Of a stretch of 43,684 nucleotides of DNA, positions 33,374 to 41,155 are shown in pieces. The notes beneath the pieces were generated by a model that was not told the DNA's origin, did not search any database, and saw nothing but the letters and a program-made list of their open reading frames with translations. Within the stretch, counting starts at the first letter, position 1; each line of letters begins with the position of its first letter. The stretch comes from Campylobacteraceae bacterium. GTDB taxonomy: Bacteria > Campylobacterota > Campylobacteria > Campylobacterales > Sulfurovaceae. Both the position numbers and the translations under genes were made by a program. The DNA lies in the NCBI GenBank assembly GCA_027036015.1, contig JALVTH010000024.1:1-43684 (forward strand), in the 5' to 3' direction.

Positions 33374-33703
33374 TTAATAAGGTTTAAAGGGCTTTTTAGA
33401 GAGAAGTTCAACTTTTTTAACAAAGGGAAGTTTTTTAATATTTTTTATAGTATTTTGTAAATTCTTTTTAACCTCGAAAAGGCACATAGTAGGTAAAATA
33501 CAAGTTTTAAGCGATACTTCATTAAATTGTGTAATTTTGTTTAAAGTATTAATATCTTCTTTTTGCAAAATTACACTAATTGTGCCGCTGTTTGGAAAAA
33601 TTAGCTTTTTCTTTTTTTTCAAAAGTTTGGCTTGTTCTAACTCTTCAAGCTCCCCAGCATTTAATAAAGTGATTAAAAACAATACAAAAATTATTTTATT
33701 CAT
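33374..33703 (-). CDS. Small exported protein resembling a free-standing I9-type protease propeptide
   Basis: The protein has 109 residues. MNKIIFVLFLITLLNA is a signal peptide, likely cut before GELEE. The mature domain reads as strand (TISVILQKED), helix (INTLNKITQF), two strands (EVSLKTCILPTMCLFEVKK), helix (LQNTIKNIKKLP) and strand (FVKKVELLSKK). That order and the LPFVKKVEL ending resemble the inhibitor I9 propeptide of subtilisins, which normally is the N-terminus of the protease. Here it is a separate gene directly after an S8 protease: its ATG (33703) overlaps the protease stop by eight bases, with GGGGG upstream. I infer a chaperone or inhibitor of that protease in the periplasm. The fold assignment is by eye. 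The two cysteines could form a disulfide. Confidence 0.5.
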   Translation of the reverse strand: MNKIIFVLFLITLLNAGELEELEQAKLLKKKKKLIFPNSGTISVILQKEDINTLNKITQFNEVSLKTCILPTMCLFEVKKNLQNTIKNIKKLPFVKKVELLSKKPFKPY

Positions 33704-35852
33704 TTTTATGCCCCCAAATAATAAGATAGAGTGAATTAATTTGACCATAATCCCCTTGCAATTTGTCTGAGATTTCAACTTGCCAAATTCCTTTGGAGTG
33801 TTCACCTAAAAAAGCGTTAGAGCTAAACCGAAAGCCTCCTTTATAAGCATTGCTTTGCAAGTAGTTTGGTTTTATCAGATTGCTTTTTGTATGAGATGGC
33901 GAGATTAAATCAATATTAATATCTCCAGCATTTGGATGATTAATATCAACTACTAATCCTATCCACTCAATAAGTATATCTTGGTCAATTGTAATAAAAG
34001 CTTTAATTGTACCTCTATCTGGAATAAATTTATTAAGAAATTTTTTAGGGGTTTGAATTTTTACAAGAGGAGGAAGATTTGTAAAAGTTGGTTTTATGCA
34101 TTCTTTAACTACTCCCAAGCCATTGATAAGCCCAAAGCCATAATCGTTACTAAAATAAAGCCCCGCACCATTTTTAATCCATGAACTATTTTGCAAATCA
34201 ATCCTTTTTGCTGTATGAGCAATAAGCCATTTAACATCACGCCAAGAGAGATTTTTACATACACTTAAAATCAAAGCTATTTCAGCACTGACCATTGGTG
34301 CAGCAGCACTTGTTCCATTTGCTGCAAAGGTAAAGTCTTTGTTAATATCTTGTTCAATTGTAATTGGTCCTTTTTGAGTATGAAGCTCACTTTTGTACAT
34401 TGCTTTATGTGAAGCAAAGGTAGTAAAAATAGTTGGACCGCTGTAATAATGTTCTCCTCCAAAGGCACTAATAAAAATATCGCTTCCAGGATTTGAATAG
34501 CTTGCAACTTTAGCTTTATGATTTAAAGCAGCAACGGCTATGACAAAAGGATTGTTAAGCAAGTAAGATAAATTGGCATTACCATGACTTTTCCTATCAT
34601 TTCCCGCTGCAAAAACAAAAATATGATTTAAATTGATTGTTGCTTCTTTTATGAGCTCTTCATAAGAAGTTTCATTTAAAAACTTTGCCCCCCAGCTATT
34701 GTTGCTTACTCTAAAATTGCCTTTTTGTAGCCATACTTTTGCAAGAGAGTTTAAATCTTGCTTTTGCAAAAAGTTATTTCCAGCAATTTTTAAATTTGGT
34801 CCAATACCTCTAATTCCATAATTATTAAAGCCTTTTGCTCCAATAATTCCAGCTACACACGTGCCATGCCCCCAGTAAAAAAGATTTGCAGGATTGGTAG
34901 GAGGAACAGTTGCGGGTGAAGGATTGTTTGAATGGGTAATAACATTAAAAGAGTTATTTAAATCTATTGTTAAATCACTATGATTGCTATCAACTCCGCT
35001 ATCAACCACTTGCACAATTTGGTTTTTGCCTAATGTATAGTGATAAAGCCCTAAGACTCCTAAATCTATACCTTTAATAGTTTTTTCATTACTTGTTGTA
35101 CAAATATTTTGTGCTTTGTCATTTTTAATATACCATTGATAGCGAAAAAAATTATCACCCTCAAGTCCATCTAAAATGCCATTATTGTTGCTATCTTTAT
35201 TTAGCGGGTCATATCCTTTGGCAATTTCATAGTAATCGGGTAAAAAATCTTTGTCACTATCAGGATTTTTGGGATTTGTGTTGTAATGAAAAAGTTCTTC
35301 ATAGTCACTTAACTCATCAAAATCGCTATCTTTTCTTACAAAATTAAGCCCCATTTCAAGCTCTTCTTGGTTACTCAAACCATCTTTGTCAAAATCTTGT
35401 AACAGCCACTCATTCCATGTGAGTTTTCCTTGCAATATATCAAAAGCATTACTTTTTAAAAGCATTGCTTCTAAGTAAGGTTCATTTTGAAGCTTTTTAC
35501 TTAAATTTTTATCAATATTGCAAAAAAGCGTGCTTTTAATGCCTATAGCACTAATTCCTTTTAAAAGCTCTTGAGTGCGCTCTTTTGCACAAAGCTGCAC
35601 AACCTTTTTTTTGCGATAAAATCCTCCATGACTTTTTAAAATAATTTCTTTATAGGGCAAAAGAATACTTTTTTCAATAAAAAAGTTACCTTCATTATTT
35701 GTGTTTGTAGAATAGATTTTTTTCTTATTAGCAAAAAGCTCTATAGTCGCATTTTTTATGGCGGTGTGGATTTGGAGAAGCTCTTTTTTGTCTCCACCTC
35801 CACCACAACTTATAATAAAAAAGCTCAGTAAAAAAACAATAAGCTTTTTAAT
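33696..35852 (-). CDS. Subtilisin-like (S8) serine protease lipoprotein with calcium repeats and P-domain
   Basis: The protein has 718 residues if started at ATT 35852. IKKLIVFLLSFFIISC-GGGG is a lipoprotein signal with Cys16. Calcium-binding, thrombospondin-3-like repeats lie at about 150-235 (DFDKDG, DSDFDE, DSDKD, DSNNNG). The S8 domain has catalytic Asp284 (VVDSGVDS), His329 (WGHGTCVAG) and Ser515 (NGTSAAAPM). A C-terminal proprotein-convertase P-domain covers about 600-718. No ATG, GTG or TTG exists that would keep the signal; the first is TTG at 35660, inside the mature region. ATT has AGGAG exactly six bases upstream and overlaps the stop of the macroglobulin gene. No internal I9 propeptide is obvious; a propeptide-like protein is encoded next. 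Confidence 0.85.
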   Translation of the reverse strand: MKKLIVFLLSFFIISCGGGGDKKELLQIHTAIKNATIELFANKKKIYSTNTNNEGNFFIEKSILLPYKEIILKSHGGFYRKKKVVQLCAKERTQELLKGISAIGIKSTLFCNIDKNLSKKLQNEPYLEAMLLKSNAFDILQGKLTWNEWLLQDFDKDGLSNQEELEMGLNFVRKDSDFDELSDYEELFHYNTNPKNPDSDKDFLPDYYEIAKGYDPLNKDSNNNGILDGLEGDNFFRYQWYIKNDKAQNICTTSNEKTIKGIDLGVLGLYHYTLGKNQIVQVVDSGVDSNHSDLTIDLNNSFNVITHSNNPSPATVPPTNPANLFYWGHGTCVAGIIGAKGFNNYGIRGIGPNLKIAGNNFLQKQDLNSLAKVWLQKGNFRVSNNSWGAKFLNETSYEELIKEATINLNHIFVFAAGNDRKSHGNANLSYLLNNPFVIAVAALNHKAKVASYSNPGSDIFISAFGGEHYYSGPTIFTTFASHKAMYKSELHTQKGPITIEQDINKDFTFAANGTSAAAPMVSAEIALILSVCKNLSWRDVKWLIAHTAKRIDLQNSSWIKNGAGLYFSNDYGFGLINGLGVVKECIKPTFTNLPPLVKIQTPKKFLNKFIPDRGTIKAFITIDQDILIEWIGLVVDINHPNAGDINIDLISPSHTKSNLIKPNYLQSNAYKGGFRFSSNAFLGEHSKGIWQVEISDKLQGDYGQINSLYLIIWGHKNE

Positions 35853-38800
35853 TGCCCTCTCCTTTTAAAATAAAAGCTTGAGAAATAGCTTGAAAGTTGG
35901 CACTATCTAGCGGTGTGAACTCTTTTTGCATAATCTCTTGTGCATTTTTTGCCTCATTTGGTTTATACCAAGAAAACTCCATAAAAATTTTTCTTAGCCT
36001 TTTATCTTTAAAGCTATAGCCATATCGTGCAAAGAGTGCATTTTTTAAGATTCGAAGCTGCTTTTTAGAATATTTCTTTGCTAAGGCTTTGGCATCTAAT
36101 TTTTGGCTAAAGAGTTTGTTAAAATCACTAAGTACCAATCCACCAAGACGGCTCTTTTCTTCTTTTAAAAGTGTCAAAACATTTTGTTTTTCAATTGGAC
36201 TTAACGAAGCAAAGATTTTGGCAGAGTTGAGCGTATTTGGTTTATACCAGCTAAATTTTTTAAAGTATTGATCAAGGGCTGGATTGAGTTTTGAAAAATC
36301 GAGCCCATGCATTGCAAAAATAGCGTTTCTGAGATAAAAAAGTTGATAGATACTAAAAGATTTGAGATTGCTTACATTAAAGTGTTGCAATTTTAAAAAG
36401 TCAGCTTCGTTAAGGCTTTTTGGTTTTGATGCACTTGTAGTGTTTTGCTCATTTGATTGTGGTTTTTGGATGATTTGTGATTTATCTTTAATTACTACTG
36501 GTTGCAAAATTGCTTTACTTAAAGCATGAAATTGTGGTTTATACATTGCTTCAATTAACGTTGGAGCTACTTTAAAGCGTCCTTTGGTAACAGCTCTTGC
36601 AATATAGGCAACACTAAAGTTTTTATCGTTATATTCTAAAGCTGCAACAAATCGATCATCCATATAAGCAACGTGTTCTAATGGGCTTAAATCAGAAGAA
36701 ATCTCAAGCGAGCTTACTTCGTTTATGCCAGAGATGTTTGGATTTTCTATTTCAAAACCAGCTGGTAAAAGATCGATAATGATAGGATGCTCTATTGTAT
36801 CATCCAAAATTTGTCCATCAATGACCACTAAAACTTTGCTATTTTGAGCAACTTGGCTTAAATCAATCTCTTTGCCATAAAGTGTAAAGAAGTGTTTTTC
36901 AATGTGAAAGCCTCTATTTTCATACGTGCTAAGCCCTTTTGCATTTGGAATACCGGCATAATCAAAACTAAAATAGATTGGATTTTGTCCAAGATTTGTA
37001 ACTTTTGGCAACTCTTGCAATAAAGTATAACTTTTGTTAAAGCTTTTGAGTGTCTCTTCTTTAGAGTTAATTTTTATCGTAATGGTCTGACTTGGAGTAA
37101 AATCGATGGCTTCGCATGCTCGTAAAATTTCGCTCATCTCTTGCGTGCTTAAATACTCTTTTTTACTGAGTTCATTTGCTAACTCTTCGTAGAGTTCAAA
37201 AGCTTGATTTTTTAAATGAGATTTTATTAAAAGCGTAATTAAAGCTGCTTTGTTTCTTATAGAGCCTCCAAAATTGCTAAAGGTAGCAAAATCTCCGCTA
37301 AGGGCCTTTTCAAAAGCAATTTTAGCCTTTTCTTTTTTACCAATTAAAGCGTAACTTGCTCCAAGCAATCCAAGTGCATAAGCACTTTTTGGCGTATTGT
37401 AGTTTAGATAATAGTCTAAATCGCTAAGATATATTTTGCCATTTTTTGTTAGAACATAGAGGGCATATAAATTGGCTTCTTTTTCCTCTTCTTTTTGAGC
37501 AGTTCGATAAAAATGATCGTCTAACCATTTTAATCCCATATTAAAATAGTATTCGTTTACTCTAAAGCCAGCTTTTTTTGCTTCGGTTAAAAAGTCCATC
37601 ACATAGCTACTCACCCATAAATCGCTATCACTTTCACTCCAAAGTCCAAATGAGCCATCAATTTTTTGCAGTTTTGCTAAGCGTTTAATAGCATTTTGAA
37701 CAAGTTTTTTATAAAAGTTATCCTCTTTATGCAAGAAAGGAAATGCCCTACTTGTGGTTTGTTCAGCACAGCGGCAGCAATAGCTAATGAGTTCATCTGT
37801 AATTTGTTTGGTATTAATAAGTGCTTTTGCGCTAATACTTAGCCAAAATTTTTTAAAGTAAAGAAAGCTATCTTTGTTAATAAGTTTAGCAAAGTCGACA
37901 CTTTTGCCAGGTTTTATAAGCCCAACTTTATGGGTAAAAAGTGGAGGGTATGGATTGCGAATACCAAGGGCAAAGTGGCGATAGTTTTTTGTTTTTGCAT
38001 TCTCTATACTAATAAGAAATTTTGCGTTTGGATTTTCTTTAAGTGCCTTCATTGTTAGTGCTTTAAAAACTTTTGAACCATTATTTTCGATAATAAAGCT
38101 GTTTGGGCTAAATTCAAGTGCTTTGTTGCTTTGTATACTTACTTTATACTCTCCTTTTGGAACCTCTTTATCAAAATCAAAACTAACAAGCACATTTGCC
38201 TTATCTCCTACACTTAAAAAGCGTGGCAAAAAGCTCTCAATTGAGATTGGATCTTTAATAATACTTAAAGCTTTTGCACTACCTACGGCTTCTTTACCCC
38301 AAGCTACTGCCATAATTTGCACTTTTCCTTGAAATTCACCAACTTTTACGTGAATTGTCATCTCTTTTTTAAGCGGCAAAGCTTTACTCATAAAGCTTAA
38401 GACTTGGCGTTTATTGGTAACTGGCTTTTCTTTTGGAGCTTGCACTTCTTCGCCAGCTCCTATTGCAAATTCGCCATGTTCACCATAGCTTTTAATAAGC
38501 TCTCCATAAATATCTTGCAAGCTTACGCCAAGCATTTTTTGACCAAAAAAATAAGTTAGTGGATCTGGTGCTTTAAAGTTTGTTAAATTTAAAATTCCCT
38601 TATCTACCACCATAACTTGAATAAAAGCTTTTTTATTAAACGAAGAATGAACTTTTATGATTAAATCTTTTTTAGAGGCTGTTTTTTTAGGGGCATCAAT
38701 GTTTAAATTGATAATTTTTTCTTTGTCACGAATTAAAATTGGCGCTACACCAATTGCACGTGTTGCTCCTCTTTTTGCCTTTTGAGCGCGAAATTGTGTA

Positions 38801-41094
38801 GCCAAAATATAAGCGCTACTTCCCCATTTTGCTTGAATTGGAATGGAGATTGTTACATCTTTATTAGCTTTTGCATTAATCTCTTTTGAGTAATAAATTT
38901 TATTTGTAGCAACATTAATTAAGATTGGACCATTAAATTTTGCTTTGATATGAACTTTGATTTTTTCCCCTGGTGCATAGATTTTTTTATCAGTTTTTAC
39001 CTCTAATCTATCAGGGCTTACTTTACTTTTGCCTTCATCATATCCTACACTAAAACTATAGCTACTAATTATGCCATTTTTATCGTAAACTTCAAGTCGA
39101 TAGTTTCCCCAATCAAGCTTATTAAGCTCCAATAAAGTAGGTTTAGTTTGTGTTTGCAATTCTCCTTCTTTTATAATGCCAATATCATTATGGGTTTGGT
39201 TGTAATTCCACTCGCCACTTTCCTCATCAAAATACCAATCATACTCACTCTCTTCTTGAATGAGTCTATAAGAGAGGGTATTTTTGATTAATTTACCATC
39301 TTTTACATCGATAATGTAAAATTTTGCTTTTTCGTTTAAATCGATTGCATCATAATCAAAAAGTGGTTTTATTCCAATATAATGAGGTTTGTCATCATAA
39401 AATAGATGCAAGACTTTATCTACGCCTCTGCCGCCTGGATCATTGACGCTTACTTTTATAATAGCTTCAATTGGCAAGGTAGAACCAGTTATTTCGTTAA
39501 TTTTAAGAGGTATTTCGATGCTTCCATTACTATCGCCTACAAACTCTTCTTGGCTTAAATACTCACTTTGGTAAAAATCATCTATTTTACCAAAATAGTA
39601 TTTTTGAAATTTATTATAGGGGCTTTGTGTTGCTTGGAGGAAAATTTCATAACTTCCTTTAGCATTTTCCAAAGCCCCGCCACTTAAATATGAAGCTTTC
39701 AGGCGCAAGAGGGCAACTTGTTTTGGTTTGAGCACTTTTGTTTTACTTATAATTTTAACTTCAATTTTTGGAGGAATAAAGTCTTCTACTAAAAATTTTA
39801 ACGAAGCAATCTCTTCTTCGCCAGCATTAATGGCAATCTCCCAAGTTCCTCTATTTTTTACAGGAGAGAGCAAAAATTTGCCCTCGGCTTTGCCAAAATC
39901 ATCTGTAATTAAAGTTTTTGTTGCAATTTTATTGTAATTACTATCATAAAGCGTTGCGAGAAGTTTTAAATGAGAAACTGCTTTTTGGTCATTATTTCGA
40001 ACTAAAATAGTAAAACCAATGGTAGAGTTTGGTTTGAAGATTCCTCTATTAGTATAAATAAACGCGTCATATCTTTTTGGAAATTCTCGTCCACTAACTC
40101 CTCTATCGGTTAAATCAAGTTTAGGGCGCGAAAAAAGCAGAGCACTAAATTGATTTTTACTAAAAACGTAAAGAGCTTGGGGTTTCATTCCGCCACTTCC
40201 TTTTAAGAGGGCGGCTTTAAAAAAGGCGAATCCTTTTTTGTTGCTTTTAGCTGTTGCCAAAATTTCGTTATTTTTTGCAATAAGCTCAATTTTTGCATTG
40301 CTAAAAGGCGTTGCGTTTGAGAGATGTTTTAAATAAACGTGAAGTCCATCTTCTCCTTTAATAGTAAAAATTCCAATGTCGCTTACCATAAACCATTGGC
40401 TATTTTGCCCTTCATAATAGCCATCATCTTCGCTACTTAAAAGATAGACGCCAGGTTTGAGTTTTTTTAACTCTTGTGTAATTGGAATTGCAGTTACGAC
40501 CTTTTTATTTTTTTGCATGGAAATTAAAAGGGTTTTTTCCCAAATCAGTGCTCCATATTCATCTTTGATATCATTTTCTTCCCATCTATCAATTGCTCTT
40601 GCAAGTCCATAGGTATTGATGGCATAAATAAGGTTTCTATCGTTAATGCGATAGAGTTTGAGCTTGAGTTTATCAATATTAACCGATTCAAGAGGAATGC
40701 TTTTTTGCCCGCTTAAAGGTAAAATATAACCACTTTCTTTAAAGCGCCAAGATGGCTTTAAATCGCCGCTTTGGCGAAAAAAGTGATACTCTCTATCTAA
40801 ATAAAAGCGATCAAAAGGAACATTTTTATCAATGATAATATGATAATAAGTTGCTGGTTTGAGCCCCCTAATGCAAAAGTGGTTATAATGACTTTCAACT
40901 TCAAAAAAGCTTTTTGGTTTGATTGTAATAAATGGCTTAATTTTACTTTCGTCAACATAAATATCGTGATCAAAGTAGAGACAATACCCAGCTGAGGTTT
41001 TGGTGCTATAGGGAGTTATTTTAATGATTTTAAGAGGCTCTTTGGCATTTGCAAAGAGAGTAAATAAAATAAAAAACACTGTTAAAAGTCTCAT
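35848..41094 (-). CDS. Bacterial alpha-2-macroglobulin with thioester and two YARHG domains
   Basis: The protein has 1748 residues. The signal peptide is MRLLTVFFILFTLFANA, with no lipobox cysteine, so the protein is probably free in the periplasm or on the surface. MG domains follow, including the MG2 region (GIFKPNSTIGFTILVRN, near 350) and the A2M segment MAVAWGKEAVGSAKA. The thioester motif C-A-E-Q is at residues 1109-1112 (RCAEQTTSRAFPFL). The toroid domain follows. Unusually, the C-terminus has two YARHG-like domains: LRNAIFAMHGLDF (near 1600) and LKNALFARYGYSF (near 1700), each ending FSWYKPN. Macroglobulins trap attacking proteases. The usual partner PbpC is absent; an S8 protease follows, with overlapping stop and start. 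Confidence 0.88.
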   Translation of the reverse strand: MRLLTVFFILFTLFANAKEPLKIIKITPYSTKTSAGYCLYFDHDIYVDESKIKPFITIKPKSFFEVESHYNHFCIRGLKPATYYHIIIDKNVPFDRFYLDREYHFFRQSGDLKPSWRFKESGYILPLSGQKSIPLESVNIDKLKLKLYRINDRNLIYAINTYGLARAIDRWEENDIKDEYGALIWEKTLLISMQKNKKVVTAIPITQELKKLKPGVYLLSSEDDGYYEGQNSQWFMVSDIGIFTIKGEDGLHVYLKHLSNATPFSNAKIELIAKNNEILATAKSNKKGFAFFKAALLKGSGGMKPQALYVFSKNQFSALLFSRPKLDLTDRGVSGREFPKRYDAFIYTNRGIFKPNSTIGFTILVRNNDQKAVSHLKLLATLYDSNYNKIATKTLITDDFGKAEGKFLLSPVKNRGTWEIAINAGEEEIASLKFLVEDFIPPKIEVKIISKTKVLKPKQVALLRLKASYLSGGALENAKGSYEIFLQATQSPYNKFQKYYFGKIDDFYQSEYLSQEEFVGDSNGSIEIPLKINEITGSTLPIEAIIKVSVNDPGGRGVDKVLHLFYDDKPHYIGIKPLFDYDAIDLNEKAKFYIIDVKDGKLIKNTLSYRLIQEESEYDWYFDEESGEWNYNQTHNDIGIIKEGELQTQTKPTLLELNKLDWGNYRLEVYDKNGIISSYSFSVGYDEGKSKVSPDRLEVKTDKKIYAPGEKIKVHIKAKFNGPILINVATNKIYYSKEINAKANKDVTISIPIQAKWGSSAYILATQFRAQKAKRGATRAIGVAPILIRDKEKIINLNIDAPKKTASKKDLIIKVHSSFNKKAFIQVMVVDKGILNLTNFKAPDPLTYFFGQKMLGVSLQDIYGELIKSYGEHGEFAIGAGEEVQAPKEKPVTNKRQVLSFMSKALPLKKEMTIHVKVGEFQGKVQIMAVAWGKEAVGSAKALSIIKDPISIESFLPRFLSVGDKANVLVSFDFDKEVPKGEYKVSIQSNKALEFSPNSFIIENNGSKVFKALTMKALKENPNAKFLISIENAKTKNYRHFALGIRNPYPPLFTHKVGLIKPGKSVDFAKLINKDSFLYFKKFWLSISAKALINTKQITDELISYCCRCAEQTTSRAFPFLHKEDNFYKKLVQNAIKRLAKLQKIDGSFGLWSESDSDLWVSSYVMDFLTEAKKAGFRVNEYYFNMGLKWLDDHFYRTAQKEEEKEANLYALYVLTKNGKIYLSDLDYYLNYNTPKSAYALGLLGASYALIGKKEKAKIAFEKALSGDFATFSNFGGSIRNKAALITLLIKSHLKNQAFELYEELANELSKKEYLSTQEMSEILRACEAIDFTPSQTITIKINSKEETLKSFNKSYTLLQELPKVTNLGQNPIYFSFDYAGIPNAKGLSTYENRGFHIEKHFFTLYGKEIDLSQVAQNSKVLVVIDGQILDDTIEHPIIIDLLPAGFEIENPNISGINEVSSLEISSDLSPLEHVAYMDDRFVAALEYNDKNFSVAYIARAVTKGRFKVAPTLIEAMYKPQFHALSKAILQPVVIKDKSQIIQKPQSNEQNTTSASKPKSLNEADFLKLQHFNVSNLKSFSIYQLFYLRNAIFAMHGLDFSKLNPALDQYFKKFSWYKPNTLNSAKIFASLSPIEKQNVLTLLKEEKSRLGGLVLSDFNKLFSQKLDAKALAKKYSKKQLRILKNALFARYGYSFKDKRLRKIFMEFSWYKPNEAKNAQEIMQKEFTPLDSANFQAISQAFILKGEGN

Positions 41095-41122
41095 TTTTTA
41101 TCCTTTGGGAGGATTTTTTAAA

Positions 41123-41155
41123 AGTATAGCACAAAATAGTGACGTGGGAGTGATA
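41123..41155 (-). promoter_or_regulatory. Direct-repeat-controlled promoter of the macroglobulin-protease operon
   Basis: Plus strand AGTGACGTGGGAGTGAT (41138-41154) has AGTGAC and AGTGAT 11 bp apart. On the minus strand the repeat ends nine bases before TATACT (41128-41123) and 44 bases from the start codon. The 21-bp block 41135-41155 matches 12425-12445 at 18 positions. Confidence 0.65.

Follow-up and report, generated by a model that had tools for sequence, protein, structure and literature searches.

Background

A prodomain can be supplied to a subtilase in trans, as a separate protein. In Aeromonas sobria, the protease ASP is devoid of a propeptide and has in ORF2 an external chaperone that also inhibits it temporarily (PMC5638518); the C-terminal Gln-Pro-Lys of ORF2 is reported at the catalytic site of ASP (PMC5638518). 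POIA1 and the propeptide-like protein of Plasmodium SUB1 are likewise single prodomains acting in trans, but differ from the gene pair described here in that they are not encoded in an operon beside their protease.

The natural targets of the bacterial alpha-2-macroglobulins (A2Ms) are poorly known. These proteins have been proposed to block the proteases of hosts or of other bacteria (PMC5764988). YfhM/ECAM of E. coli and Sa-A2M of Salmonella, which occur with PbpC, carry bMG domains, a bait-region domain and a CxEQ thioester, whereas MagD, the type II A2M of the Mag operon of P. aeruginosa (PMC5764988), lacks the thioester and is encoded together with MagA, MagB, MagC, MagE and MagF, none of which is a protease.

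The window analysed here is a stretch of 43,684 nucleotides from a Campylobacteraceae bacterium related to the sulfur bacterium Sulfurovum, in which an A2M gene is followed by genes for an S8 protease and a small secreted protein. The evidence set out below favours, as the likely explanation, an ASP/ORF2-type pair placed incidentally behind an A2M gene by rearrangement. In the literature searched, neither the three-gene combination nor ORF2-like pairs in Campylobacterota were found described. An earlier note on this DNA knew the combination from no described system, which holds for the three genes together and does not hold for the protease and the small gene, a pair of the described ASP/ORF2 type.

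Methods

A total of 38 proteases were compared, comprising that of the window, its own paralogue, relatives from whole genomes and those from public contigs. Co-occurrence of A2M and protease was examined in a sample of 199 genomes.

Results and discussion

Organisation of the locus

Three consecutive minus-strand genes make up the locus, A2M first, followed by the protease and the small gene, with the following features:

41094-35848, minus strand: A2M open reading frame, ATG start, 1748 amino acids, stop TAA at 35850-35848
35850..35852, minus strand: putative ATT start of the protease, one base in common with the A2M stop TAA (35850-35848)
33696..35852, minus strand: S8 protease open reading frame, 718 amino acids counted from the ATT start, stop at 33698-33696
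33696..33703, minus strand: overlap of exactly 8 bases between the protease stop and the small-gene ATG
33703-33374, minus strand: small gene, 109 amino acids, ATG at 33703-33701

All three open reading frames are real, as the earlier note had maintained in describing three minus-strand genes with overlapping ends, and the eight-base overlap that it reported between the protease stop and the ATG of the small gene is found at 33703-33696; the end that it gave to the locus, 41155, precedes the A2M ATG (41094) by 61 bases. Its further claim that the A2M stop overlaps the protease start is correct, by one base, if ATT is the start, and incorrect for ATG, GTG or TTG starts. No terminator-like sites were found on the minus strand at the A2M/protease or the protease/small-gene junction. 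We infer that the three genes are co-transcribed, and they are probably co-expressed from one message.

Start codon of the protease

Open from 35864 to its stop at 33698-33696, the reading frame of the protease contains no in-frame ATG, GTG or TTG upstream of 35660. Use of the internal TTG at 35660 would delete the signal peptide, the residues ahead of this position spelling a clear lipoprotein signal (KKLIVFLLSFFIISCGGGG). The ATT at 35852-35850 is the only start of translation table 11 that retains this signal, and AAGGAG is present six bases upstream of it. Judged from this context, ATT is the probable start codon of the window protease.

It has to be considered whether an ATG-type start was lost to ATT, leaving the protease unmade or very scarce and the locus decaying. 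The absence of any ATG, GTG or TTG start that retains the signal would agree with such decay, as would the ATG that serves as start in most clade relatives, but the full 718-residue frame, the intact triad and P-domain, the small gene that is still kept and the strong AAGGAG ahead of the ATT all speak against it. Moreover, with the one-base overlap with TAA the start has to end in T, as a G at this base would destroy the A2M stop, and the overlap therefore looks fixed rather than a simple sequencing error. Decay of the locus is accordingly regarded as quite improbable.

The protease

S8 and P_proprotein domains were identified in the protease above the Pfam cut-off, with a catalytic triad of D284/H329/S515 and a C-terminal P-domain at residues 629-710. 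The signal ends in a lipobox (...FFIISC), and Asp-rich, TSP3-like repeats, for which the Pfam TSP3 match is weak, are situated near the N-terminus; the description of the enzyme in the earlier note as a calcium-dependent lipoprotein subtilisin thus agrees with an Asp-rich (calcium-type) lipoprotein subtilase having both lipobox and S8 domain. Neither I9 nor any other prodomain was found within the protease by Pfam, and comparison of the small-family profiles with the proteases gave signal-peptide noise only and no prodomain.

The best PDB match, with the single sequence as well as with the profile, is ASP of Aeromonas sobria (3hjr; 3wqb is the ASP-ORF2 complex), and the alignment of the clade profile with ASP (E 2e-57) runs through the P-domain. 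ASP, furin and kexin are the closest solved relatives, and the acid at the S1 position of kexin and ASP is replaced by Ser in the window protease. The full-length model was weak (mean pLDDT 63, with low confidence at the N-terminus) and was not used. On its sequence features, the window protease is classified as a kexin-like lipoprotein of the S8 type that carries a P-domain and lacks a propeptide of its own. Elsewhere in the same genome (contig C49, L067 12282-14597) there is a second protease, which likewise has a small partner encoded downstream of it.

The small partner protein

The small protein consists of a signal peptide followed by a predicted beta-alpha-beta-beta-alpha-beta prodomain fold at residues 40-101, with a conserved Cys pair (C68/C74) and a C-terminal tail ...KPFKPY. 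The core was modelled at a pLDDT of about 90 (residues 41-100). Foldseek alone gave no match to this model below E 0.001, and the structural evidence consists only in the enrichment of prodomains in a second structural comparison, where those of PC1/3 and subtilisin make up much of the head of the ranking (Z 8.2-8.7), POIA1 (1v5i) scores Z 7.4 and ORF2 (3wqb_B) Z 7.3, the alignment with ORF2 extending to the last residue. As folds of the ferredoxin-like type are widespread and unrelated examples reach similar scores, the fold alone is no proof of kinship.

The window protein itself has no match to ORF2 or prodomain families at curated cut-offs, and profile searches of PDB sequences with the small family retrieved no ORF2 or prodomain chain, so that the homology is drawn from a stepwise route. 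The window-type family aligns with the small family of a second protease clade, clade B (hhalign 97.3%, E 1.8e-11), and the latter with a protein of genome G156 (hhalign 97.0%, E 9.6e-11), which in turn matches the Fervidolysin prodomain above the Pfam cut-off and ORF_2_N (PF18492) at E 2.8e-6 and 28.0 bits, 1.2 under the cut-off of 29.2. Members of the small families also match ORF_2_N weakly. The reading of the small gene product as a stand-alone propeptide-like protein is borne out by these profile steps and the predicted fold, which together suggest that it is probably a secreted ORF2-like external chaperone/inhibitor. The ORF2/Fervidolysin-prodomain-like protein of G156, itself secreted, is encoded (L164 5626-6144) away from the P-domain protease of that genome; partner and enzyme can therefore be unlinked.

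Comparison with ASP and ORF2

The window pair and ASP/ORF2 have in common a kexin-like S8 protease with a P-domain and no propeptide, and a small secreted partner that is encoded immediately 3' and has a prodomain fold, predicted in the present case; clade B relatives of the partner also end in the same x-Pro-Lys/Arg tail. Unlike ASP, the window protease is a lipoprotein, and its N-terminus carries Asp-rich TSP3-like repeats; the partner is shorter than ORF2, has the conserved Cys pair and ends in Tyr/Phe. As the window tail ends in Tyr rather than Lys and the S1 acid of ASP has become Ser, the specificity must differ from that of ASP. The A2M gene upstream of the pair is a further difference, confined to the window.

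By analogy with ASP/ORF2, the small protein would template the folding of the propeptide-less P-domain subtilase in trans in the periplasm, and its C-terminal tail (...KPY) would act as a temporary plug in the active site. The protease would subsequently act at the cell envelope, anchored by its lipid. Chaperone activity, inhibitor activity and the position of the tail in the active site are all suggested here by this analogy.

Distribution of the pair in Campylobacterota

The small gene is located directly downstream of the protease gene in 33 of the 38 cases, overlapping it or within about 25 bases, and the five proteases without it form one supported subclade. Protease and small gene thus travel together in Campylobacterota, and the pair is of a known kind that is now recognised in this phylum; the propeptide-in-trans route to a furin-like protease is thereby extended to a large group of its free-living members. 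In the subclade without an adjacent small partner (L121, L126, L128, L129 and L130), the next gene in L121, L126, L128 and L130 resembles, by eye, a SurA-type periplasmic isomerase.

Two groups are resolved in the protease tree, clade A with the window protease, Sulfurimonadaceae and members of the family, and clade B with the paralogue on contig C49, Sulfurovum and others. The small proteins of clade A have an invariant Cys pair and a C-terminal Tyr, Phe or Leu, whereas those of clade B are without the Cys pair and many end in x-Pro-Lys/Arg/Met; NQPK, NQPR or NKPR endings occur in several relatives. Where kexin and ASP have the S1 aspartate, Ser is found in clade A and Gln in most of clade B. 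Tail ending and S1 residue hence differ together between the clades, a covariation in the sequences that is only suggestive owing to the few independent changes. Clades B and A, with basic/Met and aromatic chaperone tails, respectively, provide a natural test for a match between tail and S1 pocket.

The usual first gene of the clade A operon encodes a PKD lipoprotein of about 1,530 amino acids and overlaps or abuts the protease gene, as observed at nine loci:

L066, 10712-15325: PKD lipoprotein, first gene of the clade A operon; homologues at L109, L110, L112-L116 and L133
L163, contig C51, 6065-10621: PKD lipoprotein of the window genome itself, no protease adjoining

The macroglobulin and its neighbours

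The domains bMG3, bMG5, bMG6, bMG10, MG2, A2M_BRD (the bait region, residues 697-837) and YARHG, the last forming the C-terminus, were identified in the A2M above Pfam cut-offs. The thioester motif CAEQ is situated at residue 1109 and aligns with the CAEQ of relatives; a signal peptide is present and a lipobox absent. The sequence thus identifies a type I macroglobulin with the bMG domains, bait-region domain and CxEQ thioester of YfhM/ECAM and Sa-A2M, from which it differs in lacking a lipobox, in its YARHG tail and in that the protease pair holds the downstream position, with PbpC elsewhere in the genome. The Mag operon resembles the locus in having its A2M in a multi-gene operon, but no partner genes common to the two were found.

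PbpC is encoded directly downstream of the A2M gene at 12 loci of relatives, in keeping with the pairing of thioester macroglobulins with PbpC that the earlier note had given as typical (see also PMC5764988). The PbpC gene of the window genome is located on contig C75, where a small regulator-like gene precedes it, and the nearer genus relatives G002, G005 and G006 are likewise without PbpC next to A2M; adjacency to PbpC is usual for this protein and not defining. The slot behind A2M is variable, since in the genus relative G005 (contig C149, L071 7741-7968) a lipoprotein that is a serine protease inhibitor of the Kazal type, with Kazal_1 above the Pfam cut-off, is encoded 10 bases after it. 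In the metagenome assembly of G002 (contig C300, L050 6188-6222), the A2M frame is broken near the YARHG region into two overlapping open reading frames, possibly by an assembly error.

Horizontal arrival of the A2M gene was considered and is not supported, the protein grouping loosely with the A2Ms of the genus and family in a poorly resolved placement. The possibility that the A2M and the large PKD lipoprotein are diverged forms of one another was rejected, as the two families do not match.

Rearrangement or functional system

Apart from that of the window, 12 genomes hold both A2M and protease, always on different contigs, and A2M is absent from the flanks of all 49 public loci of related proteases, although a link could be missed where, as in many relatives, the assembly is a fragmentary metagenome. 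The three-gene order, which the earlier note proposed to look for in other Campylobacterota, was encountered in the window genome only, and the separation of A2M from the pair in the 49 loci and 12 genomes weighs against its view of the three genes as a system. PbpC and the PKD lipoprotein are both retained in the window genome, each at another place; A2M and the protease pair are thus both away from their usual partners, and the sequences indicate that their join is a lineage-specific rearrangement, seemingly unique to this genome, and not a conserved system. Such a rearrangement would have put the pair directly behind the A2M gene, with translational coupling on the same message, while A2M would keep its ordinary job as a periplasmic protease trap. 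Trapping of the operon neighbour by A2M may occur but is not needed to explain the locus.

A functional module nevertheless deserves consideration, in which the co-made A2M traps the protease of its own operon when this is released early or leaks within the periplasm, the ORF2-like protein being the first, reversible brake. The tight overlaps and the two terminator-free junctions predict coupled synthesis, the CAEQ thioester and the bait-region domain are intact, and the Kazal inhibitor of G005 indicates that further genes of protease control can accompany A2M. On the other hand, the gene order is unique to the window genome among those sampled, genus relatives have A2M without this protease, and in the closest relatives of the protease the first gene is instead that of the PKD lipoprotein. 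The guarding role that the earlier note gave to the trap is thus possible, but the comparative evidence does not support it; such a module is considered unlikely, and action of A2M on the protease of its own operon is similarly doubtful. A narrower form, a lineage-specific module in which ATT coupling fixes the proportion of trap, enzyme and plug and any enzyme escaping the plug is disarmed by the trap, also appears rather unlikely. The single genome with A2M in front of the pair makes it possible to ask directly whether an endogenous protease can be restrained by a bacterial macroglobulin. An attack/defence module, with the surface protease attacking rivals or prey and A2M shielding the producer from rival proteases, would suit the lipoprotein signal of the protease, the periplasmic-type signal of A2M and the blocking of host or other bacterial proteases proposed for bacterial A2Ms (PMC5764988). 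It is nonetheless held to be very improbable: the locus is not flanked by genes for toxins, secretion or immunity-like functions, and the related proteases, found in free-living sulfur bacteria, are encoded next to rpsF-ssb-rpsR or PKD lipoproteins.
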